Assembly: GCA_001657385.1 (NCBI GenBank)
Contig: LYSZ01000002.1
Coordinates: 62,001 to 126,000 of the forward strand
Source of the DNA: Parvularcula sp. BBD 1991-13
Lineage (GTDB): Bacteria; Pseudomonadota; Alphaproteobacteria; Caulobacterales; Parvularculaceae
Reading direction: 5' to 3'
Length of the DNA stretch: 64,000 nucleotides
The translations under genes and the position numbers were made by a program. Each line of letters begins with the position of its first letter. The stretch's first letter is position 1. Under the pieces are notes generated by a model. It had not been told where the DNA came from. It searched no databases and was given only the letters and a program-made list of their open reading frames with translations. This document shows positions 27,413 to 42,963 of the stretch, piece by piece.

Positions 27413-28036
27413 TCAGGTCAGCGGGCGGAGACCGGCGATCTCCAGCAAGGTCGCGTCAGGACTGGTCAGACTCGGGTGACGCTTGACATCCATATGCCAA
27501 GATTTAGCCGCCTCGGTCAATTCAGCCTCTACATCCTGCCCTTTCAGCAACAGCGCGCGCGTGTTTTTTCCTTGAATTCCATGTACATAGCCCAGAAGCT
27601 GATCAAGCCGGGCAAGAGCGCGCGCAGTCACGACGTCCGGCGGTGCGGCGAGCGTCGTCGATTCGATTCGCGCCGGTATGACCTCAAGATTGGCGAGGCC
27701 CATGGCGTCGCCCGCCGCGCGCAGAAAGGCCGCTTTCTTCCCCGTCGATTCGATCAGCGTAACGCGGACGTTCTTTTCCGCCAGCATCGCCGCAAGGACG
27801 AGGCCGGGAAACCCCCCGCCGGACCCGATATCGGCCAAGCGCCGCGCATGCGCCGGCACATGCGGCGCAATCTGGGCGGAGTCGAGGTAATGACGCGACC
27901 AGCGCGTCTCCAGCGTGGACCGGGCGACAAGATTGTGGCGCGCGCTCCACTCCGTCAGCACACGGTCCATTTCCATGAGCCGGTTGAGCGTTTCACGTGA
28001 AACATTCGCCGCCGCAGCGAAGTCCTCGGGCGTCAT
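27413..28036 (-). CDS. rsmG: 16S rRNA m7G527 methyltransferase RsmG (GidB)
   Basis: Protein of 207 residues. The SAM-binding motif is [16 protein letters not shown], followed by [14 protein letters not shown] and [14 protein letters not shown]. The enzyme methylates N7 of G527 in 16S rRNA. I chose the ATG at 28034-28036, which overlaps the mnmG stop as ATGA; an upstream in-frame start would extend into mnmG. A parS palindrome (27990-28003) lies inside the coding sequence and is read as V-S-R-E-T near residue 13. Confidence 0.96.
27990..28003. promoter_or_regulatory. parS site 1 (within rsmG)
   Basis: Perfect palindrome GTTTCACGTGAAAC, the core of the ParB-binding site known from many bacteria. 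It falls in frame so that the protein reads V-S-R-E-T. It is followed by A, matching the extended consensus on that side. Confidence 0.93.
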
Positions 28037-29946
28037 GAAGCGACCCTTGCGGCGTTCTTTTTCACCCACGCCAGGACGAGCGCCAGGGCGGCGGGGGTGA
28101 CGCCCTCGATCCGGCTGGCCTGGCCGAGGGTCGCCGGGCGCGCCTCGATCAGCTTCTGGCGCACTTCGTTGGAAAGCCCCTTGATGGCGGCGTAATCGAG
28201 ATCCGGGGGCAGGGACCGGGCCTCGTCCTTTTTGAAAGCGACAATATCCGCCTCCTGACGATGCAGATAGCCGGCATAAAGCGCGTCGAACTCAAGCTGT
28301 TCGCGAACCGCCGGCGCCATCTCCCGCAGCCGCGGCCAGATGCGGGCGAGGTCCTCAACGCCGACCGCCGGCAGGGCGAGAAGATCGATCACCGACCGCC
28401 GCCGCCCGTCCCGGTTCAGCGTCAGCCCGTGACGCGCGGCCTCGTTCGGCGTCAGCGTCGTCGCATTCGCCCAGTCGCGCGCCTCGTTCAGGGCGGCCTG
28501 TTTCACGTGAAACGCCGACGCGCGTTCCGGCCCGACAATGCCGGCCGCGACGCCCAACGGCGTCAGGCGCTGGTCCGCGTTATCCGCCCGCAGGGTCAGG
28601 CGATACTCCGCGCGGCTGGTGAACATCCGATAGGGTTCCGTCACGCCGTGGGTGATGAGGTCGTCGACAAGAACCCCGATATAGGCTTCGGCGCGGTCCA
28701 GCACGAAAGGAGCCCCGCCGCCGGCCTTGCGGGCGGCGTTGACCCCGGCCATCAGCCCTTGCGCCGCCGCCTCCTCATAGCCCGTGGTCCCGTTGATCTG
28801 ACCGGCCAGGAAAAGACCGGGCAGGGCCTTTGTCTCCAGGCTCGCCGTCAGCGAACGCGGGTCCACATAATCATACTCGATGGCGTAGCCGAAGCGGATC
28901 ACCGATGCGCGCTCCAGACCGGGGATGGTCTTAAGAAACGCGGCCTGCACATCCTCGGGCAGGGACGTCGATATGCCGTTCGGATACACCGTGTGATCGT
29001 CAAGACCTTCGGGTTCGAGGAAAATCTGGTGGCTGTCGCGCTCGGCGAAGCGGACCACCTTATCCTCGATGGACGGACAATAACGCGGCCCCCGCCCGGA
29101 AACGCCACCGCCATAAACAGCCGACTTGCCGATATTCGTCTCGATAATGCGGTGGGTCTCGGCCGTGGTCGCGGTGACGCCGCAGGCTATCTGGGGCACG
29201 GTGATGCGGTCGGTCAAAAATGAAAACGGGACCGGCGCATCGTCCGCCGGCTGCATCGCCAGCCCGTCCCAGTCGATCGTTCGCCCGTCGAGACGCGCCG
29301 GGGTGCCGGTTTTGAGCCTGCCCATGGCGAGGCCAAGCCCGTAAAGGCGATCCGAAAGACCCATCGCCGGCGCCTCGACGCCGCCCCAACTATTGTCCGC
29401 AGCGGCGGCGTCAGGGCGGGACGTGGCGCGCCCCGCCGGGATGCGCCGGTCGCCGATGTGGATGACCCCTTTCAAAAAGGTGCCCGTGGTGAGCACCACC
29501 GCCGGGGCGCGCGCTTGCGCCCCATCGCCGGCGATCACCCCCGCAACGGTTCCACGTGAAACAATGAGGTCCTCGATGGCCATTTCGGCGATGTCGAGAT
29601 TGTCGATTTCCGAAAGGGCGCTCTGCATGGCCTCGCGATAGAGCTTGCGGTCGGCCTGCGCTCGGGGGCCCCGGACCGCCGGCCCCTTGGACCGGTTCAG
29701 CATCCGGAACTGGATGCCGGCCCGATCAATGATACGGCCCATAAGCCCGTCCAGCGCATCAACCTCGCGCACCAGATGGCCCTTGCCCAATCCCCCGATG
29801 GCCGGGTTGCAGGACATTTCTCCGATCGTGTCCTGGCGATGGGTGGCGAGGAGGGTTCGCGCGCCGGCGCGCGCCGCCGCCGCCGCCGCCTCGCAGCCCG
29901 CATGCCCGCCGCCGATAACAATAACGTCGTAACTGCTATTCGTCAT
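28033..29946 (-). CDS. mnmG: tRNA uridine-5-carboxymethylaminomethyl modification enzyme MnmG (GidA)
   Basis: Protein of 637 residues from the ATG at 29944-29946. The FAD motif is [13 protein letters not shown], with [20 protein letters not shown], the NAD-binding middle region, the conserved [22 protein letters not shown] and a C-terminal helical domain. With MnmE it installs cmnm5U at the wobble position of certain tRNAs, using FAD and folate. Two parS sites sit inside the gene (28500-28513, read F-H-V-K; 29549-29562, read V-S-R-G-T) and one lies just upstream. It overlaps rsmG by four bases. Confidence 0.97.
28500..28513. promoter_or_regulatory. parS site 2 (within mnmG, 3' part)
   Basis: Perfect palindrome GTTTCACGTGAAAC. 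It is preceded by T and followed by G, so the extended 16-base palindrome is one base short of perfect. MnmG reads F-H-V-K across it. Confidence 0.93.
29549..29562. promoter_or_regulatory. parS site 3 (within mnmG, 5' part)
   Basis: GTTCCACGTGAAAC, the parS core with one base change from the perfect palindrome. The change is of the kind allowed in the degenerate parS consensus. MnmG reads V-S-R-G-T across it. Confidence 0.85.
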
Positions 29947-30007
29947 AATACCTGCTTGCGCCGACCATATAGGGGCGAAAGGGCGAAACTGCATCTCTTT
30001 TCGCCGT

Positions 30008-30021
30008 GTTTCACGTGAAAC
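30008..30021. promoter_or_regulatory. parS site 4 (upstream of mnmG)
   Basis: Perfect GTTTCACGTGAAAC, the only intergenic member of the cluster. It lies 62 bases upstream of the mnmG start, where ParB loading could also affect the mnmG-rsmG-parA-parB promoter. Confidence 0.93.
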
Positions 30022-30165
30022 GCCCGCCGGTCGGAAAAGCGCCCCTCAAAAGACCGACCGTCATGAGCTTAAGAATTCGTAACCGGCGCCGCTTCGCCTT
30101 GTCTCTGGCGCCGGTTCTGCAGCGCGCCTTTCTTCAGGGGGAGCCGATTACCATGGGGATGCGCC

Positions 30166-30417
30166 ATGACAAAGCTGCAGAACGAGCTGGCGGCGGCAGA
30201 GAGTTCCAGTTCGGTTCGGGAAACGGCGCTCGACGCGCTGGAGCGGCGCGCAACGCGCCGCGCACTGCTCAACAGACTTCGGGAAAAAATCCGGAATGAC
30301 GAGCGTGAAGCGGCGAGGCTCGACATTCGGGGCAGGCACGACGACGCCGAGGCGCTGCTGAAGACGGCCCGCCGACGGAAAAACATGCTCCGCAAGGATT
30401 CCGACGAAGATTTGTAA
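30166..30417 (+). CDS. Small basic helical protein, unknown function
   Basis: A frame of 83 residues, highly charged and predicted to be almost entirely helical (coiled-coil-like), with a repeated Glu/Arg/Leu pattern: LQNELAAAESS, ALDALERRATRRALLNRL, KIRNDEREAARL. It runs rightward between the leftward mnmG and mnmE genes, within the parS cluster. The ribosome site is weak (GGGGATG seven bases upstream). The composition is coherent and there is no competing frame, so I think it is real, but no family is recognised. Confidence 0.55.
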   Translation: MTKLQNELAAAESSSSVRETALDALERRATRRALLNRLREKIRNDEREAARLDIRGRHDDAEALLKTARRRKNMLRKDSDEDL

Positions 30418-30450
30418 GCCCCGCTACTTTCTAAGCCCCGCTACCGGGCG

Positions 30451-31815
30451 TTACTTGCCGATGCAAAAGCTGGAAAAAATTTCGCCCAACACGTCCTCAA
30501 CGCCGACGGCCCCGGTAACGCCGCCAAGCGCCCTCGCGGCCAGACGGGCGTCCTCCGCCGCCAGCTCGGGGGACGCAGCCAGCGCTTCTTCGGCGCGGAT
30601 GAGGGCGGCGATCGCCCTTTCCACCGCCTGTGCATGTCGTGCGCGCGTGAGCAAGGGTTCCGCGCCTGTTCCACGTGAAACTTTCGCCTTCAGGAAGTCG
30701 ACCAGCGCGTCTATACCGGCGCCGGTCGTTGAGGACAGGCTCAACACAGCGATGTCTTCCCCAAGAGGCGTGTTCGGCGTGGCCGCAGAGCGGTCCGCCC
30801 GCGTCCAGATCAGCGCATCCCCGGGCCGGAGACGCGCCAGCGTTTCACGTGAAACAACCGCTGCGCCGGGATCGAGAACGCCGAGCCTGACGTCAGCCTG
30901 TTCCGCATAGGCGCGGGCGCGTCGCATGCCCTCCCGCTCGATCGCATCCTCGGTCTCGTCGCGCAGACCGGCCGTATCCGCGACGACGGCCACGACGCCG
31001 CAGAGATCGAGGCGCGTTTCGATGATATCCCGGGTCGTCCCGGCGACATCGGAAACGATGGCGACGTCCGAGCCGGCGAGGGCGTTCACCAGGGAGGATT
31101 TCCCTGCATTGGGCGGGCCGAGCACGGCGACGGAAAGCCCCTCGCGGATCGTCTGCGCCTGCGCCGACGCGGCGAGGTATGACTCCAGTTCCCGGCGAAG
31201 GGCGGTCATCTCCGGTCCCGCTCGCGCCGCAACCGCCGCGGGCACGTCGCCTTCGTCGGGGAAATCGATATCCGCCTCAAGCGGCGCCATGATGGCCAGA
31301 AGGCGTCGCCGCCAGCCCTCCGCCGCTTCCGACAGACGGCCGCCAAGCTGACCCAAAGCCTGCTTCCTTTGAAGGGTTGTTTCGGAGTCGATAAGATCGG
31401 CAAGCGCCTCGACCTGGGTGAGATCGAGCTTATCGTTGCGAAGCGCGCGCAAGGTGAATTCTCCCGCTTCGGCGGGCCGCGCGCCGAGGCGGGCAAGCGC
31501 ATCGTAAAGGGCGATTTCCACCGCGCGGGACCCGTGGAGATGAAACTCCGCCACGTCCTCGCCGGTGAAGCTTGCCGGTCCCTCGAAAAGTATGACCAGC
31601 CCCTGATCGATGATCGAGCCATCCGCCGGATCGCGCAATTTCGTTACCGCCGCCTCTCGGGGGCGCGGGTTCTTGCCGACGAGGGTTCCGGCGACGCTAA
31701 GGGCCGCCGGGCCGGAAATGCGGTAGACCGCAACGCCGGCCTTGCCCGCTCCGGAAGCGCGCGCGTAAATCGTATCCGCGTCCGCCGGGGCTGCGGACGC
31801 CAGGTCAGCGCCCAT
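30451..31815 (-). CDS. mnmE: tRNA modification GTPase MnmE (TrmE)
   Basis: Protein of 454 residues from the ATG at 31813-31815. The N-terminal folate-binding domain contains GVAVYRISGPAAL and EFHLHGSRAV, then EFTLRALRNDKLDLTQVEAL. The G domain has GPPNAGKSSLVNAL, DVAGTTRDI and DTAGLRDE, and the C-terminus ends in FCIGK, the conserved C-[IL]-G-K farnesylation-like motif. It works with MnmG on wobble uridine. Two parS sites are inside the gene. In relatives mnmE and mnmG are adjacent; here a small divergent ORF intervenes. Confidence 0.96.
   Translation of the reverse strand: MGADLASAAPADADTIYARASGAGKAGVAVYRISGPAALSVAGTLVGKNPRPREAAVTKLRDPADGSIIDQGLVILFEGPASFTGEDVAEFHLHGSRAVEIALYDALARLGARPAEAGEFTLRALRNDKLDLTQVEALADLIDSETTLQRKQALGQLGGRLSEAAEGWRRRLLAIMAPLEADIDFPDEGDVPAAVAARAGPEMTALRRELESYLAASAQAQTIREGLSVAVLGPPNAGKSSLVNALAGSDVAIVSDVAGTTRDIIETRLDLCGVVAVVADTAGLRDETEDAIEREGMRRARAYAEQADVRLGVLDPGAAVVSRETLARLRPGDALIWTRADRSAATPNTPLGEDIAVLSLSSTTGAGIDALVDFLKAKVSRGTGAEPLLTRARHAQAVERAIAALIRAEEALAASPELAAEDARLAARALGGVTGAVGVEDVLGEIFSSFCIGK
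30668..30681. promoter_or_regulatory. parS site 5 (within mnmE, 3' part)
   Basis: GTTCCACGTGAAAC with one change from the perfect palindrome. It has the same variant as site 3. MnmE reads V-S-R-G-T. Confidence 0.85.
30842..30855. promoter_or_regulatory. parS site 6 (within mnmE)
   Basis: Perfect GTTTCACGTGAAAC, followed by A. MnmE reads V-S-R-E-T. It is the site nearest the putative origin, about 9.5 kb away. Confidence 0.93.
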
Positions 31816-32307: not shown

Positions 32308-33285
32308 ATGAAAATAAAAGCTGTGTTTCTCGACGAGATTGGGGGCGGCCCCGAAACGCTGACCATGCGCGATCATGAACTGGACCCCCCCGGTCCCGGC
32401 GCCATATGCGTGCGCCATCGCGCCATCGGATTGAATTTCATCGACATTTATCAACGCCGGGGGCTTTATCCCATCGCGCCGCCCGCGATCCTCGGCTCCG
32501 AAGCGGCGGGCGTGGTCGAAGCCGTGGGCGAGGGCGTGCGCGACTTCGCTGTCGGGGATCGGGTCGCGTATATCGCCGCCGCCGGCGGTTATGCGCAGGC
32601 GGCCAACGTGCCCGCCGGCGCCGCGGCGAAAATTCCCGACGCCGTCACGGATGAAGACGCCGCCGCCCTGTTCCTGAAGGGGCTTACGGTGGAGATGCTG
32701 GTGCGCCAGGTGCACGCGCTTGCGGCGGAGGACGCCTGTCTTGTCTATGCCGCCGCGGGCGGCGTCGGCACGCTTCTTTGTCAGTGGGCGAACCATATCG
32801 GCGCGCGGGTGATCGGCGTCGTCGGACGCGAGGACAAGGCCGCGCTCGCCAGGGAAAGCGGCGCCGCCGACGTGATCGTCAGGACCGGCGCCGATTCAAT
32901 ATCGGCGAAGGTTCGCCAGCTAACCGACGGGGCGGGGGTCAACATCGTCTACGACTCAGTCGGCGCCGAGACCTTCGAAGCCTCGCTCGATTCCCTTGCG
33001 ATGCGCGGTCACATGGTCAGTTATGGCAACGCTTCCGGACCGGCGCCGGCGATCGCGCCGCTTGATCTTGCCCGCCGGGGCTCGCTGACTCTCACCCGTC
33101 CGACGCTGTTTCATTACGCCACGCCCGATCGGCTCCCGGCCATGGCCGAAGCCCTGTTTTCCATGGTCGCCGAAGGCGCCGTCAAGGCCCGCGTCGGCCA
33201 GCGCTTCGCGCTCGCCGACGCCGCCGAAGCGCATCGCCGCCTGGAAAGCGGGGAGACGAGCGGCGGCGTCATACTGACGCCCTAA
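32308..33285 (+). CDS. NADPH:quinone oxidoreductase (zeta-crystallin-like MDR)
   Basis: Protein of 325 residues of the medium-chain dehydrogenase superfamily. The catalytic fold opens with RHRAIGLNFIDIYQRRGLYP, the conserved quinone-reductase signature, then GSEAAGVVEAVGEGV. The Rossmann region has YAAAGGVGTLLCQWA and the NADPH-selecting stretch VVGREDKAALARESGA. The zinc-ligand cysteines of alcohol dehydrogenases are absent, as expected for QOR. It would reduce quinones or other enals with NADPH in the cytoplasm. Confidence 0.93.
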   Translation: MKIKAVFLDEIGGGPETLTMRDHELDPPGPGAICVRHRAIGLNFIDIYQRRGLYPIAPPAILGSEAAGVVEAVGEGVRDFAVGDRVAYIAAAGGYAQAANVPAGAAAKIPDAVTDEDAAALFLKGLTVEMLVRQVHALAAEDACLVYAAAGGVGTLLCQWANHIGARVIGVVGREDKAALARESGAADVIVRTGADSISAKVRQLTDGAGVNIVYDSVGAETFEASLDSLAMRGHMVSYGNASGPAPAIAPLDLARRGSLTLTRPTLFHYATPDRLPAMAEALFSMVAEGAVKARVGQRFALADAAEAHRRLESGETSGGVILTP

Positions 33286-33308
33286 CGCCAGTTTTACAGG
33301 GGATGTTC

Positions 33309-34316
33309 ATGACCGCACTGCGACGGACCTCGCAACGAAGCTGGGCCTGGGCCGGCCTTTTGCTGCTTGCCGCGGCTTGCGCTGACGAAGGGAGAGGCGA
33401 GCGCGCGGGCGGCGGCCATGCGGGCGGATACGCAGGAATGGGCGCCGGCGCAGACGGCGGCTGGACGCTGACGCCGGGCGGCGATCTCAACGGGTTTTTC
33501 GATTGTCTGGAGGCGGAAGGCGTCACGCTCGTTTCCGCCCATCGCGGCGGACCGTCGCCCGGCTATCCAGAAAACGCGCTGGAGACCATGGCCGCCATGC
33601 TCGCCCGGGCGCCGGTCATCATGGAAGCCGATGTGGCCGCATCCGCCGACGGCGTCCATTACCTGATGCACGACGCGACGCTTGAGCGCACAACCGACGG
33701 CATGGGCGCCGTGGACGCGCTGAGCTGGGACGAGATTTCCGCACTCCGCCTTAAGGACAATGACGGCGCGCTGACGAGGTTTTCGCCGACCCGCTTCGAC
33801 GACGCCCTGGCCTGGGCGAAGACGCGCACAATCCTGCAAATCGACTTCAAGCCTTCGGCCGACTTCGAAGCGATCGCGATGGAAATTCGCCGTCAGGGGG
33901 CGGAGCATCGAGTGATCCTGATCGCCTATTCCATCCCTGCGGCGCAAAAGCTGCACCGGCTGTTGCCCGACGCCATGATATCGCTCGGCCTCAGTTCTCA
34001 ATCGGAGATCAACCGCGCCGTGGCGAAAGGATTGCCGGCCGACCGCCTTCTCGGGTTCACCGGAACGGAAGCCCCCCGCCCGCGATTGTTCAGCATCTTG
34101 AATGATCGCGGCGTGGAGGTGATTTTCGGGACGCTGGGCCGGGAGAGTTCCATCGATACCGAAATCGCCAGAAGCGGCGAGGAGGCCCGTTACGCCTCTA
34201 TCGCCGCGCAAGGCGTGGACATTATCGCCTCGGACCGGCCGGCCGAAGCGCATGCCGCCCTTGTTGCGGCGAACCGGGCTCCGCGCATCGGGATTTGCGG
34301 CGTCGACCGCGGATAA
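33309..34316 (+). CDS. Glycerophosphodiester phosphodiesterase family lipoprotein
   Basis: Protein of 335 residues from the second ATG (33309), which stands six bases after AGGGG; the first ATG at 33303 abuts it. A lipoprotein signal ends in AAAC (Cys24), so the enzyme is exported. The GDPD barrel shows VSAHRGGPSPGYPENAL with the catalytic HRG, IMEADVAASADGVHYLMHDATLERTTDG with metal ligand Glu and catalytic His, and ILQIDFKP. Family members hydrolyse glycerophosphodiesters to glycerol-3-phosphate and an alcohol. Confidence 0.9.
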   Translation: MTALRRTSQRSWAWAGLLLLAAACADEGRGERAGGGHAGGYAGMGAGADGGWTLTPGGDLNGFFDCLEAEGVTLVSAHRGGPSPGYPENALETMAAMLARAPVIMEADVAASADGVHYLMHDATLERTTDGMGAVDALSWDEISALRLKDNDGALTRFSPTRFDDALAWAKTRTILQIDFKPSADFEAIAMEIRRQGAEHRVILIAYSIPAAQKLHRLLPDAMISLGLSSQSEINRAVAKGLPADRLLGFTGTEAPRPRLFSILNDRGVEVIFGTLGRESSIDTEIARSGEEARYASIAAQGVDIIASDRPAEAHAALVAANRAPRIGICGVDRG

Positions 34317-37262: not shown

Positions 37263-38537
37263 TCAGGTATTCATGGAGTCGAAGAAATCCTTGTTTGACT
37301 TTGTCTGACGCAGCTTGTCGATCAGGAACTCGATCGCGTCGGAGACGCCCATGGGCGAGAGAATGCGCCGCAGCACGAACACTTTCGACATATCGCCCTT
37401 GGCGGTGATCAGGTCTTCCTTGCGGGTGCCCGACTTGGCGATGTCGATCGCCGGATAAACCCGCTTGTCCGCAACCTTCCGGTCAAGGACAATTTCGGAG
37501 TTGCCGGTGCCCTTGAACTCTTCGAAAATCACTTCGTCCATTTTCGATCCCGTGTCGATCAGGGCGGTGGCGATAATCGTCAGGGAACCGCCTTCCTCGA
37601 TGTTTCGGGCGGCGCCGAAAAACCGCTTCGGCCGTTGCAGCGCGTTGGCGTCGACGCCGCCGGTCAGGACTTTCCCGGACGACGGCACGACGGTGTTGTA
37701 AGCGCGGCCGAGACGGGTGATCGAATCCAGGAGGATGACCACGTCGCGCCCGTGTTCCACAAGGCGCTTGGCTTTCTCAATCACCATCTCGGCGACCTGA
37801 ACGTGACGGGTCGCAGGTTCGTCGAAGGTGGAGGAAATCACCTCGCCCTTCACCGACCGCTGCATGTCGGTCACTTCCTCGGGCCGCTCGTCGATCAGGA
37901 GAACGATCAGGTAGCATTCCGGATGATTGTCGGCGATGGAGTGCGCGATGTTCTGGAGCAGGACGGTTTTCCCCGTACGCGGCGGCGCCACGATCAGCGC
38001 CCGCTGCCCCTTTCCAAGGGGCGCCACGAGATCAATCACCCGGGCCGAAAGATCCTTTTTGTCCTTCGGATCTTCCGTCTCCATCTGGATGCGTTCATCC
38101 GGGTAAAGCGGCGTCAGATTGTCGAAGTGAACCTTGTGCCGGGCCTTCTCCGGCTCCTCGAAATTAATCGATCCGACTTTCAGCAGGGCGAAGTAGCGTT
38201 CGCCGTCCTTCGGACTGCGGATCTCGCCGATCACCGTGTCCCCGGTGCGCAAGGCGAACCGCCGGATCTGGCTTGGGCTCACATAGATGTCATCGGGCCC
38301 GGCGAGATAGTTCGCTTCCGGCGAGCGAAGGAAGCCGAATCCGTCGGGCAGCACTTCCAGCACGCCGCCGCCGGCGATTTCCACATCGTGATCCGCCAGT
38401 TCCTTTAGGATGGCGAACATCATATCCTGCTTGCGCATGGTGGAGGCGTTTTCAACCTCCAGATCCTCTGCGAACGCGAGCAGTTCCGCCGGCGTTTTGG
38501 CTTTCAACTCATCGAGAGTCATTCTTTCAGGCAGCAT
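37263..38537 (-). CDS. rho: Transcription termination factor Rho
   Basis: Protein of 424 residues. The N-terminal RNA-binding cold-shock-like domain contains [20 protein letters not shown] and the ATPase domain has the Walker [13 protein letters not shown], the Walker [12 protein letters not shown] and the Q/R loops ([24 protein letters not shown]). Rho is a hexameric helicase that terminates transcription. It is downstream of hemE-hemJ on the leading strand away from the putative origin, the usual alphaproteobacterial position. Confidence 0.98.
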
Positions 38538-38714
38538 GCAATCCTCAATCGGAAACGATCCCGCCTTCGCAGCGGGGACGCTATTAAAACAATGAAAAAG
38601 CTAGAGCGCTGCGTGTGCGGACGCGCGCTGAACGAGGTGAGTTGGCAATAGATATAGATGCTGTCATGACGGCGTCAATGGACATGACGACGCCGGAGCG
38701 CTCGCAACCGGCGT

Positions 38715-39161
38715 CTAAAACGGTTTCACCACAGCAAGGAAGACGACCGCGATCAGCAGAATGAACGGCGCCTCGTTGACAATGCGCCAGAATTTTTCGC
38801 TGCGCGGACGCTCGCCCGCGGCGAATTTCCGGGCGCTCGCGGCGTAAAACCCATGGATGGCGGAAATCGCGACGACGCTCGCCAGCTTGACGTGAAACCA
38901 CCCGGAGGAGAGCGTCGCCGGCGCGGCGTAGAGCATGGAAAGGCCCAGAACCCAGACGATCGCCACCGAGGGGTTCATGATGCCTTTCAGGAGCCGACGC
39001 TCCATTTTCACGAACATCGCTTCCGCCTCGCCGCCCTTTTCCGCCTGATGATGGTAAACGAACAGCCGCGGCAAATACATCATCCCGGCCATCCATGCGA
39101 TGATCGCGATGATGTGGAGAGCTTTGATCCAGAGATAAATTCCGGCGAGAAAGTCGGCCAT
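38715..39161 (-). CDS. hemJ: Protoporphyrinogen oxidase HemJ
   Basis: Protein of 148 residues with four membrane helices: AGIYLWIKALHIIAIIAWMAGMMYLPRLFVYHH at the start, containing the conserved His-rich face, then SVAIVWVLGLSMLY, HVKLASVVAISAIHGFYA and a final FILLIAVVFLAVVKPF. HemJ oxidises protoporphyrinogen IX to protoporphyrin IX in the membrane and is a heme-binding protein itself. The ATG overlaps the hemE stop as TGATG, so the two heme genes are coupled. Length is typical. Confidence 0.94.
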   Translation of the reverse strand: MADFLAGIYLWIKALHIIAIIAWMAGMMYLPRLFVYHHQAEKGGEAEAMFVKMERRLLKGIMNPSVAIVWVLGLSMLYAAPATLSSGWFHVKLASVVAISAIHGFYAASARKFAAGERPRSEKFWRIVNEAPFILLIAVVFLAVVKPF

Positions 39162-40195
39162 CAACGGTCCTGGCGTATGAACTCGATCAAGGCCGCCACA
39201 TGCGCCGGCGGCGTGTCCGGGGTCAACCCGTGGCCGAGGTTGAATATATAGGGAACGTCATGGAACAGCTTGAGGTAGGTTTCGGCCTCCCGCTCCATGG
39301 CGCGCCCGCCGGCCACCACCAGCATCGGATCGAGCCCGCCCTGCACCGTCTTCAGCGGACTGATGTTGCTCCGCGCCCAGGAAGGGTCCATGGCGTAGTC
39401 GATGCCGATTGCGTCGCAATGCTTCACCGCGGCGTATTCGCCCGCCTTTTCCCCGACCCCTTTCGGAAACAGGATCACGGGGGCGTTCGGCCGCGCGGTC
39501 TTGATGCTCCGCGCGATCCGCTCCAGGGGCCGCACCGAGACCGCGTCCAGCACCGGCCAAGGCAGGCCGCCGGCCCAGCTGTCGAAAAGCTGAACCGCGT
39601 CGGCGCCGGCGTCGATCTGCGCGATGAGATAGTCGATGGTCTTGTCGGTCAGGATGTCGATCAGTTCGGTGATGAACGAACCGGCCTTGTAATAATGCTC
39701 GCGAAGGCTGGAAGGATCCTTCAGCGACCGGCCCGCCAGCATGTAGGTGGCCACGGTCCACGGGGCGCCGGCAAAGCCGATCAGCGCCTTGTCCGGGCTC
39801 AACCCCGCTCTCGTCAGACGCACCGTTTCAAACACCGGGGCGAGGATGTCAACAACGTCTCGATCTCGGAATGATTTAAGCGTTTCCGGCGTTACGACCG
39901 GCTCCAGGCGCGGCCCGTGCCCTTCCGCGAACCACAGCTTCTGGCCCAGCGCATGAGGGATGAGGAGGATATCCGCGAACAGGATCGCCGCATCGAGATC
40001 ATATCGCCGGATCGGTTGCAGAGTCACTTCGCTCGCCAGCTCGGGATTATAGCACAGGTCCAGAAAGGAACCCGCCTGTGCCCGCACTTCCCGGTATTCC
40101 GGCAGATATCGCCCGGCCTGCCGCATGAGCCAGATCGGCGGTATGGCCGAAGGCTCTCCCGCCAGGCTGCGAAGCAGTTTCGGTGTGTCGCTCAT
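39161..40195 (-). CDS. hemE: Uroporphyrinogen decarboxylase
   Basis: Protein of 344 residues. It opens with the family signature PPIWLMRQAGRYLPEYREVR, followed by ILFADILLIPHALG, GFAGAPWTVATYMLAG and GLPWPVL. HemE decarboxylates uroporphyrinogen III to coproporphyrinogen III in the cytoplasm. Its promoter lies in the putative origin, as in Caulobacter, where hemE transcription and origin control overlap. It is coupled to hemJ downstream. Confidence 0.97.
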   Translation of the reverse strand: MSDTPKLLRSLAGEPSAIPPIWLMRQAGRYLPEYREVRAQAGSFLDLCYNPELASEVTLQPIRRYDLDAAILFADILLIPHALGQKLWFAEGHGPRLEPVVTPETLKSFRDRDVVDILAPVFETVRLTRAGLSPDKALIGFAGAPWTVATYMLAGRSLKDPSSLREHYYKAGSFITELIDILTDKTIDYLIAQIDAGADAVQLFDSWAGGLPWPVLDAVSVRPLERIARSIKTARPNAPVILFPKGVGEKAGEYAAVKHCDAIGIDYAMDPSWARSNISPLKTVQGGLDPMLVVAGGRAMEREAETYLKLFHDVPYIFNLGHGLTPDTPPAHVAALIEFIRQDR

Positions 40196-40229
40196 GTGGC
40201 CTCTACAGTTCCGTTTACTTTCTATAAAG

Positions 40230-40260
40230 GATTCTTAAGAAAGGATTAATTTAAAGAGTC
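40230..40260. promoter_or_regulatory. Two GANTC (CcrM methylation) sites bracketing the CtrA box
   Basis: GATTC at 40230-40234 abuts the CtrA box and GAGTC at 40256-40260 lies just beyond it. GANTC is methylated by the cell-cycle-regulated methyltransferase CcrM in alphaproteobacteria. Methylation state here could couple to origin or hemE control. Such 5-base sites also occur by chance. Confidence 0.5.
40235..40249. promoter_or_regulatory. CtrA-binding site in putative oriC
   Basis: TTAA-N7-TTAA exactly (TTAAGAAAGGATTAA), the CtrA consensus core. Another TTAA follows at 40251-40254. It lies 40-54 bases upstream of the hemE start. In Caulobacter, phosphorylated CtrA binds such sites in the origin to block initiation and to control hemE transcription. 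Confidence 0.75.
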
Positions 40261-40315
40261 ATACCGGATCTCGGGGAAAAACGCCCCCATGCCGGTCATC
40301 CCCTTGCGGCGCGTA

Positions 40316-40370
40316 TGATTTACACGAATTTTTACCAAGGGAAACATCCATTCACATGACTGGTGAAAAA
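40316..40370. promoter_or_regulatory. Cluster of degenerate DnaA-box-like sequences
   Basis: Three near matches to the DnaA box occur within 55 bases. TGATTTACA (40316-40324) has 7 of 9 matches to the Caulobacter G-box TGATCCACA. CCATTCACA (40348-40356) has 7 of 9 to TTATNCACA. TTTTTCACC on the minus strand (40362-40370) has 8 of 9. The last two form an inverted pair (TTCAC/GTGAA). Weak boxes are usual in Caulobacter-type origins. Confidence 0.45.
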
Positions 40371-40528
40371 CGTGAAATCGCCCTTGTCCGACGGGTGGCG
40401 GCGTCAGGAAAACCAGCGGAAAAGGATTTCGTCCCCGAAGGCGGGCGCCGCGGAATGGCCGGTCATACCGGAAAGAGTTTTCAGATCCCCATGGGCGCCG
40501 GGCCGGCATGAATCTCCGGCCTTTGCGC

Positions 40529-40569
40529 AGGGGAAAACCGCTGGCCGCAGTTGCGGCTTGTTTTCCCCT
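40529..40569. repeat. Compound hairpin just upstream of ppsR
   Basis: Outer arms AGGGGAAAAC (40529-40538) and GTTTTCCCCT (40560-40569) pair perfectly over 10 bases. The 21-base interior contains a second perfect hairpin, GCCGCA-GT-TGCGGC. The structure ends 26 bases before the ppsR start. It could be a terminator stopping transcription entering the origin, a leader RNA structure of ppsR, or a cruciform in the origin. Confidence 0.7.
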
Positions 40570-40595
40570 CATTTCCCAAGCGATAGTCCTACGCC

Positions 40596-41474
40596 ATGAA
40601 CCGTGAATCAGATCCGTCGCAGGGCGCCTCGCCGTCCCGGAAAAAGCGTGATCCCATCGCCAGCTTTTTCCATGTTCACCTTGTCTCCGATTCGACTGGG
40701 GAAACGCTGAACGCCATGTTGAAGGCCACTGCGTCGCAATTCGCGGCGGCCAAACCGCTGGAGCATATCTACGCGCTTATCCGTTCGCGCGTTCAGATGG
40801 AGCGAACCCTGGCGGAGATAGAAGCCTCGCCCGGCCTTGTTCTTTACACCGTGATCAATCCGGAATTGCGCCGGCTCCTGGAGATCCGTTGCAGCGAGTT
40901 GCAGACCCCTGCCATTTCGGTGCTCGACCCCCTGCGCAACGCCTTCACGGATTATCTCGGGCTGCAACAGAGCCTGAAGACCGGCGCGCAGTATCAGCTC
41001 GACGATGATTATTTCAAGCGCATCGCCGCGCTCGACTATACCCTGTCCCATGATGACGGTCAGATGACGTGGGATCTGGAAAGCGCCGACGTGGTGCTGG
41101 TGGGCGTCAGTCGAACGTCGAAAACCCCGACCTGCATGTACCTCGCCAATCGCGGCGTGAAGGCGGCGAATGTGCCGCTTGTCCCCACTTCGCCCCCGCC
41201 GGACATACTCTTCTCCTTGCGTAACCCGCTGATCGTCGGCCTGGTCGCCTCACCCGAAAGGCTGGCGCAGATCCGCAAGAGCCGTCTCGGCGGGCTGAAT
41301 GTGGACGGGCAGGTGGAGGAGTATTCCGATATTGATCTCATTCGCGAGGAAGTGCTCCGCGCCCGGCGTCTCTACGCCAGGAACAAATGGCCGGTGATTG
41401 ACGTGACGCGAAGGTCCGTGGAAGAAACCGCCGCGGCCATCCTCACCAAACTGTCATCGCGGAAAAACCAGTGA
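40596..41474 (+). CDS. ppsR: Pyruvate,water dikinase/PPDK regulatory protein (kinase/pyrophosphorylase, DUF299)
   Basis: Protein of 292 residues. The family opening FFHVHLVSDSTGETLNAM is followed by the P-loop GVSRTSKTPT, then CMYLANRGVKAANVPLVP and the C-terminal SDIDLIREEVLRARRLY and WPVIDVTRRSVEETAA. These bifunctional enzymes phosphorylate with ADP and dephosphorylate with phosphate the active-site threonine of PEP synthase or PPDK. It heads the rightward ppsR-maf-aroE-coaE group, with GTGA overlap to maf. It lies immediately beside the putative origin. Confidence 0.95.
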   Translation: MNRESDPSQGASPSRKKRDPIASFFHVHLVSDSTGETLNAMLKATASQFAAAKPLEHIYALIRSRVQMERTLAEIEASPGLVLYTVINPELRRLLEIRCSELQTPAISVLDPLRNAFTDYLGLQQSLKTGAQYQLDDDYFKRIAALDYTLSHDDGQMTWDLESADVVLVGVSRTSKTPTCMYLANRGVKAANVPLVPTSPPPDILFSLRNPLIVGLVASPERLAQIRKSRLGGLNVDGQVEEYSDIDLIREEVLRARRLYARNKWPVIDVTRRSVEETAAAILTKLSSRKNQ

Positions 41475-42085
41475 CGTCCCGTACCATCATTCTCGCCTCC
41501 GGCAGCGCCATTCGCGCCGACATCCTGCGCAATGCGGGACTGAGCTTTGAAATCATGCGTCCCGATGTCGATGAAGACATTATCAAGCAGCGCTGTTTCG
41601 AAGAAGGGCTCGACCTTGAGGCGACGGCCCTGGCGCTTGCCGAAGCGAAGTCTCTCGCCGTCGCCGTCGGCGAGACGACGGTCGGCGAAGACGATCTTGT
41701 GATCGGTTCCGATCAGATCCTCGAATTCGAAGGCCGGCCTTTCGACAAGCCCAAGTCCATGGCGGAGGCGCGCGCGCGTCTTCTCGACATGGCGGGCAAG
41801 CCGCACACGCTGATCAACGCGGTTGCGGTTTCCCGCGGCCGGAATCTCCGCTGGCGTCATATCGACCGCCCGCGCCTTATGATGCGCTCCTTCACGGCCG
41901 GACAGATCGACGCCTATCTCGACGCCGCGGGCCCGGACATTCTCAACAGCGTCGGCGCCTACCAGGTTGAAAAGCTCGGCGCACGGTTGTTCGAACGCAT
42001 AGACGGCGATCATTACGCCGTGCTCGGCCTTTCTCTTTATCCCCTTCTTGAGTTCCTGCGCCAGGAAGGGGCGCTTGCGTTCTGA
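41471..42085 (+). CDS. maf: Maf family nucleotide pyrophosphatase
   Basis: Protein of 204 residues starting at a GTG that overlaps the ppsR stop as GTGA. The motifs are IILASGSAIRADIL at the start, DLVIGSDQILEFEGRPFDKP and the LLDMAGKPHTLINAV core with the lysine of the active site. Maf proteins hydrolyse non-canonical or modified nucleotides (dTTP/UTP or m7GTP class). The exact nucleotide class cannot be told from these motifs. It is followed by aroE at TGATG. Confidence 0.94.
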   Translation: MTSRTIILASGSAIRADILRNAGLSFEIMRPDVDEDIIKQRCFEEGLDLEATALALAEAKSLAVAVGETTVGEDDLVIGSDQILEFEGRPFDKPKSMAEARARLLDMAGKPHTLINAVAVSRGRNLRWRHIDRPRLMMRSFTAGQIDAYLDAAGPDILNSVGAYQVEKLGARLFERIDGDHYAVLGLSLYPLLEFLRQEGALAF

Positions 42086-42963
42086 TGGCGGGCGAGGCTT
42101 CCGAGACTTCAGGCAATAACGCGCCCATCCTCGCCGGCGTCGTCGGCCATCCCGTGACCCATTCCCTGTCGCCGCTGATCCATACATTCTGGGCTCGCCG
42201 CGCGGCGATCGACGGGTATTATGTTCCGGTGGCGGCGCCCCCGTCATATGAAGCGTTCGCGTCCGTCGTCGACGGCCTTCGCCGCGTCGGTTTCGCCGGC
42301 GTCAACGTAACCTTGCCGCATAAGGAAAATGCGTTCCGTTACGCCGGCGCGTCTACCGATCGGGCCCGCGCGGCCGCCGCCGCCAACATGCTCACCTTTG
42401 ACGGCGATACGGTCCATGCTGATAATTCCGACATTCCGGGTTTTGCGTCCGCGCTTGCGTCGGTGCTGGAAGAAGGCGAGGATCTTGGCAAGGCGCTGGT
42501 TCTCGGCGCCGGCGGGGCGGCGCGGGCGATCGTTCTCGCCCTGAAAGACGCCGGTTGCCGCCGCATCGCGATCGCCAACCGCACCCGGCGCAAGGCCGAA
42601 GCCCTCGCTCAGGCGCTTGGGGCGGACGATGTGGTCGACTGGGGGGCGCGATCCGCCGCCTTGTCGCGAAGCGTGGTCCTGGTCAACACAACTTCCCTCG
42701 GCATGGCGGGCCAGCCGCCGCTCGACATCGACCTGTCCGCCATGCCCGCCGGCGGCGTTGTCGCCGATATCGTTTACACCCCGTTGAAAACGCCTCTTTT
42801 GCGCCAGGCGGCCGGCGCGGCGCTGCGCACGGTCGACGGGCTCGCCATGCTGATGCACCAGGCGGCGCCCGGCTTTCAGCAATGGTTCCACGGGTCGGCG
42901 AGCGTCGATGAGGAATTACGCCAGGTCCTGATCAATGAGCTGGAGCGGCGGGCCGCGCCATGA
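42085..42963 (+). CDS. aroE: Shikimate dehydrogenase
   Basis: Protein of 292 residues. The substrate domain has [18 protein letters not shown] and the catalytic lysine in [11 protein letters not shown]; the partner aspartate lies in [10 protein letters not shown]. The NADP-binding motif is [15 protein letters not shown] with NRTRRKA after it. AroE reduces 3-dehydroshikimate to shikimate in aromatic amino-acid synthesis. It overlaps maf by one base and coaE by four. Confidence 0.96.

Follow-up and report, generated by a model that had tools for sequence, protein, structure and literature searches.

The intergenic region between hemE and the COG1806 gene is an established chromosomal replication origin in Caulobacter and has been reported as the origin in Rickettsia (PMC1914354). 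As described there, the origin of Caulobacter crescentus (Cori) spans 404 bp and carries five CtrA sites along its length together with an IHF site (PMC1914354), and two G-boxes and five W-boxes, the latter with the consensus TCCCCA, have been described in it as well (PMC4285127). The origins of Rickettsia prowazekii and R. typhi are bounded by the same two genes and measure 383-384 bp according to a published table of in silico predictions (PMC1914354). In Hyphomonas neptunium, CtrA binding next to the origin has been reported from ChIP-seq (PMC7200025).

The DNA analysed here (the window) is a 64-kb stretch corresponding to positions 62001-126000 of contig C32 (533,209 bp), in an assembly of 4.24 Mb that comprises 36 contigs and is 98% complete. 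The closest relatives of its ppsR (COG1806) gene among named records belong to Marinicaulis and other Parvularculaceae. Its hemE-ppsR gap shares both boundary genes with the Caulobacter origin (PMC1914354), as a sequence-only reading of the window had stated, and an origin is expected at this place because the hemE-COG1806 locus is the known origin position in Caulobacter and Rickettsia. The gap is close to Cori in length (400 bp against 404 bp; PMC1914354) and, insofar as Cori is known here from published descriptions, resembles it in having an AT-rich element, TTAA-N7-TTAA sites, and few or weak DnaA sites. Unlike Cori, it has one exact and one degenerate CtrA site, placed together at the hemE end, no G-box, a single TCCCCA, and no IHF consensus. 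The two Rickettsia origins, with which it shares the boundary genes, differ from it in their AT content of 82% in the published table (PMC1914354). The locus is therefore Cori-like in outline, but without consensus DnaA boxes and an IHF site in the window, so that its arrangement represents a lineage variant. The features of the locus are collected in Table 1.

Table 1. Features of the hemE-ppsR locus and its surroundings (window coordinates)
Feature	Position	Strand	Basis or remark
parS-like cluster, six sites	27989..30856 (C32:89989-92856)	.	One mismatch in four sites and two mismatches in the other two
hemE (uroporphyrinogen decarboxylase), left boundary gene	39161..40195	-	TIGR01464, 376.4 bits against a cut-off of 302.95
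hemE-ppsR gap, very probable replication origin region	40196..40595	.	400 bp; 46% AT against 34% AT for the window
CtrA site 1, degenerate (TTTACTTTCTATAAA)	40214..40228	+	Two mismatches in the window; 21 bp before site 2
Least stable 50 bp, candidate unwinding element	40214..40263	.	78% AT; nearest-neighbour stability, rank 1 of 63950 window positions
Candidate hemE promoter -10, TATAGA	40221..40226	-	Putative; read from sequence; inside CtrA site 1
GATTC, CcrM site	40230..40234	.	In the 6-bp spacer between the CtrA sites; touches site 2
CtrA site 2 of the tandem pair, exact TTAA-N7-TTAA	40235..40249	+	Sequence match; exact in 20/30 aligned rows
GAGTC, second CcrM site	40256..40260	.	Read from sequence; about 60 bp from hemE
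TTTTCCCC copy 1 (GGGGAAAA on plus)	40273..40280	-	Aligned place is GGGGATAA in some relatives
TCATCCCCT, candidate degenerate DnaA site	40296..40304	+	Some relatives have TGATCCACA or TTATCC at the aligned place
Conserved block TCCCCATGGGCGCC...GGCATGAATC, GANTC at its end	40486..40514	.	Alignment and conservation profile
Third GANTC in the gap	40510..40514	.	Read from sequence
TTTTCCCC copy 2	40530..40537	-	Read from sequence
TTTTCCCC copy 3, near the ppsR start	40561..40568	+	Read from sequence
ppsR/COG1806 (PEP synthase regulator), right boundary gene	40596..41474	+	NF003742, 324.9 bits against a cut-off of 225

The hemE-ppsR gap is very probably the chromosomal replication origin. GC skew, the check set for this claim of the sequence-only reading, bears it out, with a minimum 0-2.2 kb from the gap in the own contig and in three other genomes. 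Over 320 contiguous kb of C32, the cumulative skew reaches its minimum at C32:104437 (window position 42437, inside aroE), 2.24 kb from the gap start, and rises afterwards, the mean skew being -0.013 to the left and +0.013 to the right; the best change point in 10-kb blocks falls at 110 kb (p 0.001). In M. flavus, of which 400 kb were read, the minimum lies at 592,204, about 2.2 kb past the ppsR end of the gap, and the change point at 590,001 (p 0.0005). A same-genus genome in a single contig of 3.47 Mb (G027) allowed 40 chromosome-wide samples, among which the 15 up to 1,224,000 are negative, the 19 from 1,290,001 to 2,858,000 positive, and the last six negative. There is thus a single upward switch, between 1,224,000 and 1,290,001, with the terminus some 1.6 Mb from it, near 2.9 Mb. 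Read contiguously, the skew reaches its minimum at 1,256,262, inside ppsR and 0.79 kb from the CtrA/GANTC element, which stands at 1,257,051 between ppsR and hemE. In a genome of another genus (G023), coarse sampling brackets the sign change between 3.02 and 3.25 Mb, and 40 contiguous kb place the minimum at 3,156,714; this position lies within the hemE-ppsR gap, the ppsR match starting 267 bp downstream of it. The skew of P. dongshanensis carries no signal (p 0.50; minimum 140 kb away) and is uninformative. Among the four informative genomes, then, three minima lie 0.8-2.2 kb off, all on the ppsR side, and one lies inside the gap. Strand-biased octamers, tried as a second origin mark after training on 310 kb of the own contigs C4 and C21, support this location weakly: the plateau on C32 (92.8-121.7 kb) includes the gap, that in P. 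dongshanensis (559.9-575.4 kb) likewise takes in the gap, which lies at 574.2 kb there, and the minimum in M. flavus is 40.6 kb off the gap.

Leftward of the gap, on the minus strand, lie hemE, hemJ, rho, rsmG, a ParB-domain gene, and a gene for a ParA-like ATPase that passes no curated cut-off; rightward, on the plus strand, lie ppsR, a Maf-like gene that passes no cut-off, aroE, and coaE. The description of core genes diverging from the gap stands for these genes, but the leftward block is interrupted by two long plus-strand ORFs (32308-33285 and 33303-34316). Divergent hemE and ppsR neighbours occur in 65 of 76 loci, and for the other 11, some of which sit on short contigs, no hemE match was found. 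The six parS-like sites lie 9.3-12.2 kb left of the gap, close to the distance of 9.5-12.5 kb proposed earlier for parS, and parS within one mismatch is present in all eight relatives searched. An Rfam scan of positions 38000-42000 gave no match at the gathering score. Elsewhere in the assembly, an exact parS is found on contig C6 (G000:C6:38614-38629), and a palindromic parS-like site with two mismatches (C13:22546-22561) has a second GcrA-family match (C13:20370, 35.6 bits) roughly 2 kb away; these two sites may be marks of other replicons or mobile elements. Outside the window, C32:25001-45000 forms a 20-kb stretch of 53-57% GC, the rest of the contig being mostly 61-70%, and looks like an acquired island.

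At the hemE end of the gap, two CtrA sites and a CcrM site between them form a compact element. The presence of an exact TTAA-N7-TTAA, noted in the sequence-only reading, is confirmed, and this site is the sole exact match in the 64-kb window (shuffle mean 0.06). The own genome has the exact site 34 times and the reversed pattern 21 times, so that a lone CtrA site is only mildly enriched and the meaning of this one comes from its conservation. The flanking CcrM sites are likewise found as claimed, GATTC adjoining the exact site and GAGTC on its other side; three or more GANTC per 400 bp occur in 1.7% of windows over 320 kb of C32. The exact site would cover the hemE -35 region, 17 bp from the candidate TATAGA -10 and pointing toward hemE. 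A candidate AT-rich unwinding element, a Cori-type feature, is present here by predicted stability, and in all 30 relatives' loci tested the least stable stretch begins at an offset of between -7 and +22 bp relative to the start of hemE. Such instability supports an unwinding element but does not prove it, since an AT-rich promoter in a GC-rich genome is also unstable.

Conservation of this element was assessed in an alignment of 32 Parvularculaceae-type gaps, the window included, in which several relatives are near-duplicates and the rows are therefore not independent; one locus with a misplaced hemE start (L049) was dropped from the tandem-pair and stability counts, and one with an alignment gap (L026) from the count for site 2. 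Conservation peaks in the first approximately 65 columns from hemE, the part that holds the two CtrA sites, 21 bp apart in the relatives, and the GANTC of the 6-bp spacer. An exact site 2 is shared by 20 of 30 rows, and 27 have it with no more than one mismatch; for site 1 the corresponding numbers are five and 25, and 24 rows have at least one of the two sites exact. In L015, L018, L024, and L064 it is site 1 that is exact and site 2 that carries one mismatch. The spacer GANTC is present in 25 of 31 rows, as GAATC (11), GATTC (nine), or GACTC (five), and this use of three central bases is as expected if CcrM recognition is the feature being kept. The conserved block at 40486-40514, toward the ppsR side of the gap, takes the form TGGGCGCC followed by GG(T/C)ATGA in many same-genus relatives.

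A search of 62 family genomes with the pattern GANTCTTAANAAAGNNTNAAT returned one match each in 27 genomes and none for the reversed control; the matches include 22 of 28 same-genus genomes, the own genome among them. Within the hemE-ppsR gap lie 24 of the 27, comprising the window itself, 20 placed by coordinates (20 of 20 checked), two placed by flanking hemE and ppsR (G027 and G051), and one situated between ppsR and the first aligned hemE residue (G029). The three matches outside the gap all belong to genus g3 (G021, G022, and G023), those of G021 and G022 being on a contig other than that of ppsR. The element-like pattern of G023 (L255:3088-3108; G023:C1:123088) lies, by reading, between a small ORF interpreted as HTH and a typA-like GTPase ORF. 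The element was rejected as an origin mark of every family genome, as the exact pattern is missing in 35 of 62 genomes, six of them same-genus, and three of 27 matches are outside the gap. In other genera, for example at L026, L027, L267, and L270, the CtrA pair is absent from the gap or CtrA-like sites are placed elsewhere; a GANTC 37-68 bp from hemE was present in each of seven such loci inspected. Loss of the CtrA and GANTC sites from close relatives with the same locus had been named as grounds against an origin of this type, and what is found is retention within the genus without family-wide retention of the pair.

Twelve Hyphomonadaceae-type gaps (L030-L038, L042, L071, and L075) provide a further comparison. 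Like the present gap, they contain a CtrA-like site (within one mismatch in 12/12) and many GANTC, one of which lies 55-63 bp from hemE in 11 of 12. Unlike it, they place the CtrA-like site 130-138 bp from hemE, compared with 40 here, they are packed with GANTC (72 in the 12 gaps, shuffles giving 18.5), and they have TCCACA DnaA cores (32 in all, shuffles giving 2.2). Their GANTC are often 6 bp apart near ppsR, a packing reminiscent of the GATC clusters at E. coli oriC.

The degenerate DnaA-box-like sequences claimed for the window gap did not withstand counting: no match lies within one mismatch of TTATCCACA/TGATCCACA, and two lie within two mismatches against 1.3 in shuffles. The 32 family gaps together contain 15 DnaA boxes within one mismatch (3.7 in shuffles), 55 TCC[AC]CA cores (15.8 in shuffles), and 28 copies of the W-box TCCCCA (11.5 in shuffles); the window gap has one TCCCCA against 0.4 shuffled. 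The place beside ppsR is occupied by TCCACA in some relatives and by TCCCCA in others. In many relatives this TCC[AC]CA overlaps a TATAAT-like sequence, so that it may belong to a promoter or leader and not be a DnaA site. The published IHF consensus WATCAN5WTR has no match in the window gap and four over the 32 gaps against 3.5 shuffled. TTTTCCCC is present in three copies in the window gap, against 0.1 in shuffles. In a locus of another genus (L267), TGTGGATAA, by reading, is an exact minus-strand DnaA box (TTATCCACA) following that locus's own GANTC. The TTTTCCCC copies may accordingly be viewed as putative degenerate DnaA sites, and the TCATCCCCT column, in which 15 of 32 rows are within one mismatch of T[TGC]ATCC, is the top plus-strand column for such hexamers. 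Scoring of columns for DnaA-like hexamers was set aside as suggestive and non-specific, given that higher scores are reached on the minus strand, over CtrA site 2 among other places.

The own genome encodes the corresponding regulators, namely CtrA, a CcrM-type enzyme, GcrA, and DnaA. The CtrA orthologue is 88% identical to the Caulobacter sequence, the CcrM-type protein carries a RAMA domain, which we take to be linked to CcrM, a GcrA-family protein is present, and there is one full-length DnaA (L097:967-2583, G000:C4). This DnaA scores 304.3 bits, below the TIGR00362 cut-off of 343.9; within the order, no more than 97 of 200 genomes pass that cut-off, which rules out a divergence unique to the family. 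In an alignment of DnaA proteins from 25 of the 62 family genomes, with positions read by eye, the own protein and six others of the same genus have, in the DNA-binding domain, Gln at the place that we take to be Arg399 of E. coli DnaA and His at the place of Gln408, numbering and residue roles being assumed for both; the other 18 have Arg at the first place throughout (18/18) and His (15) or Gln (three) at the second. Two short, putatively HdaB-like ORFs (161-167 aa) with a match to the DnaA DNA-binding domain family occur at G000:C3:26909-27097 and C17:118170-118358, and similar ones are found in most family genomes.

Taken together, we regard it as probable that the gap is the chromosomal origin, with a melting element beneath the CtrA pair and CcrM sites and with DnaA acting on weak sites. 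The location, the sites, their conservation, and the presence of the regulators are supported by sequence evidence, while binding and control are carried over from C. crescentus Cori and the Hyphomonas neptunium ChIP-seq, by analogy with which CtrA would gate initiation. DnaA would load on weak degenerate sites beside the AT-rich element next to hemE and melt it. The two CtrA sites, 21 bp or two helical turns apart, are positioned on this melting element and would cover the predicted hemE -10 and -35; since the pair overlies both, phosphorylated CtrA would hold the origin shut and keep hemE off until CtrA is removed, whereupon DnaA could load and open the element. The spacer CcrM site and its neighbour would be hemimethylated after each firing until CcrM acts, thereby marking a freshly copied origin. 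In C. crescentus, removal of CtrA binding at Cori is described as disturbing the cell cycle only mildly and as mattering under stress (PMC4468827), and by this measure CtrA control here may be that of a modulator. Against the model stand the lack of a DnaA box above chance and of an IHF consensus in the window gap, the degeneracy of site 1 in this species, and the lack of a retained CtrA pair in the other genera examined. A more specific version, in which CtrA, bound to the two-turn tandem pair, clamps the melting element itself and so prevents initiation, the CcrM site between serves as a copy-state mark, and initiation depends on an altered DnaA that recognises weak sites of the TTTTCCCC type, is tentative and, as a whole, rather doubtful.

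The same element could also be read as a hemE promoter only, in an origin whose firing it does not gate, with CtrA, CcrM, and GcrA timing haem synthesis. The predicted promoter fits this, with TATAGA under site 1, the -35 under site 2, a 17-bp spacing, and an orientation toward hemE, as does the retention of the locus without the CtrA pair in other genera. We nevertheless consider a pure promoter role unlikely, because the element is the least stable DNA of the window, in the same place in 30 of 30 relatives' loci, where melting by DnaA is expected, and because CtrA of Hyphomonas is reported to bind adjoining the origin (PMC7200025); the promoter and gating roles are in any case compatible.

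The displacement of the skew minima raises a different question, whether replication in fact starts at most a few kb away on the ppsR side, the gap being a conserved region of divergent promoters. In three of the four informative genomes the minimum is shifted by 0.8-2.2 kb, always in that direction, falling inside ppsR in G027 and beyond that gene in M. flavus and on C32, and the window gap offers no DnaA box above chance. Skew is, however, imprecise at the kilobase scale, and the rightward genes from ppsR to coaE could shift the minimum; that of G023 falls within the gap itself, the strongest multi-site conservation found is in the gap alignment, and the Hyphomonadaceae-type gaps bear clear DnaA cores, with the TCCACA excess given above. 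A neighbouring origin thus appears quite improbable. As for an origin at another place, such as dnaA, where many bacteria have theirs, the own dnaA lies on another contig (C4:398341), which makes the two places distinct, but the surrounding 200 kb show no upward skew switch (p 0.44), and in G027 dnaA (1,745,839) is 0.49 Mb from the switch, so that this alternative is largely refuted and scarcely deserves credence.

An origin in the hemE-ppsR gap, with CtrA and CcrM sites on its melting element, remains our preferred reading, and it bears on how such control is distributed. A 2015 review describes CtrA sites as not seen at origins outside Caulobacter, some marine caulobacters, and possibly Rickettsia, and regards CtrA use in marine caulobacters as having probably arisen independently (PMC4468827). 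As judged from listings of the open-access literature, no report was found of the tandem CtrA-GANTC-CtrA arrangement in Parvularculaceae, and to that extent the arrangement in this group is unreported. A further group with a conserved CtrA-GANTC-CtrA element on its least stable DNA, placed differently from that of the Hyphomonadaceae-type gaps, offers a natural series in which to ask whether such control was inherited from a common ancestor or evolved repeatedly, and the putative degenerate DnaA sites likewise open a divergent DnaA to testing.
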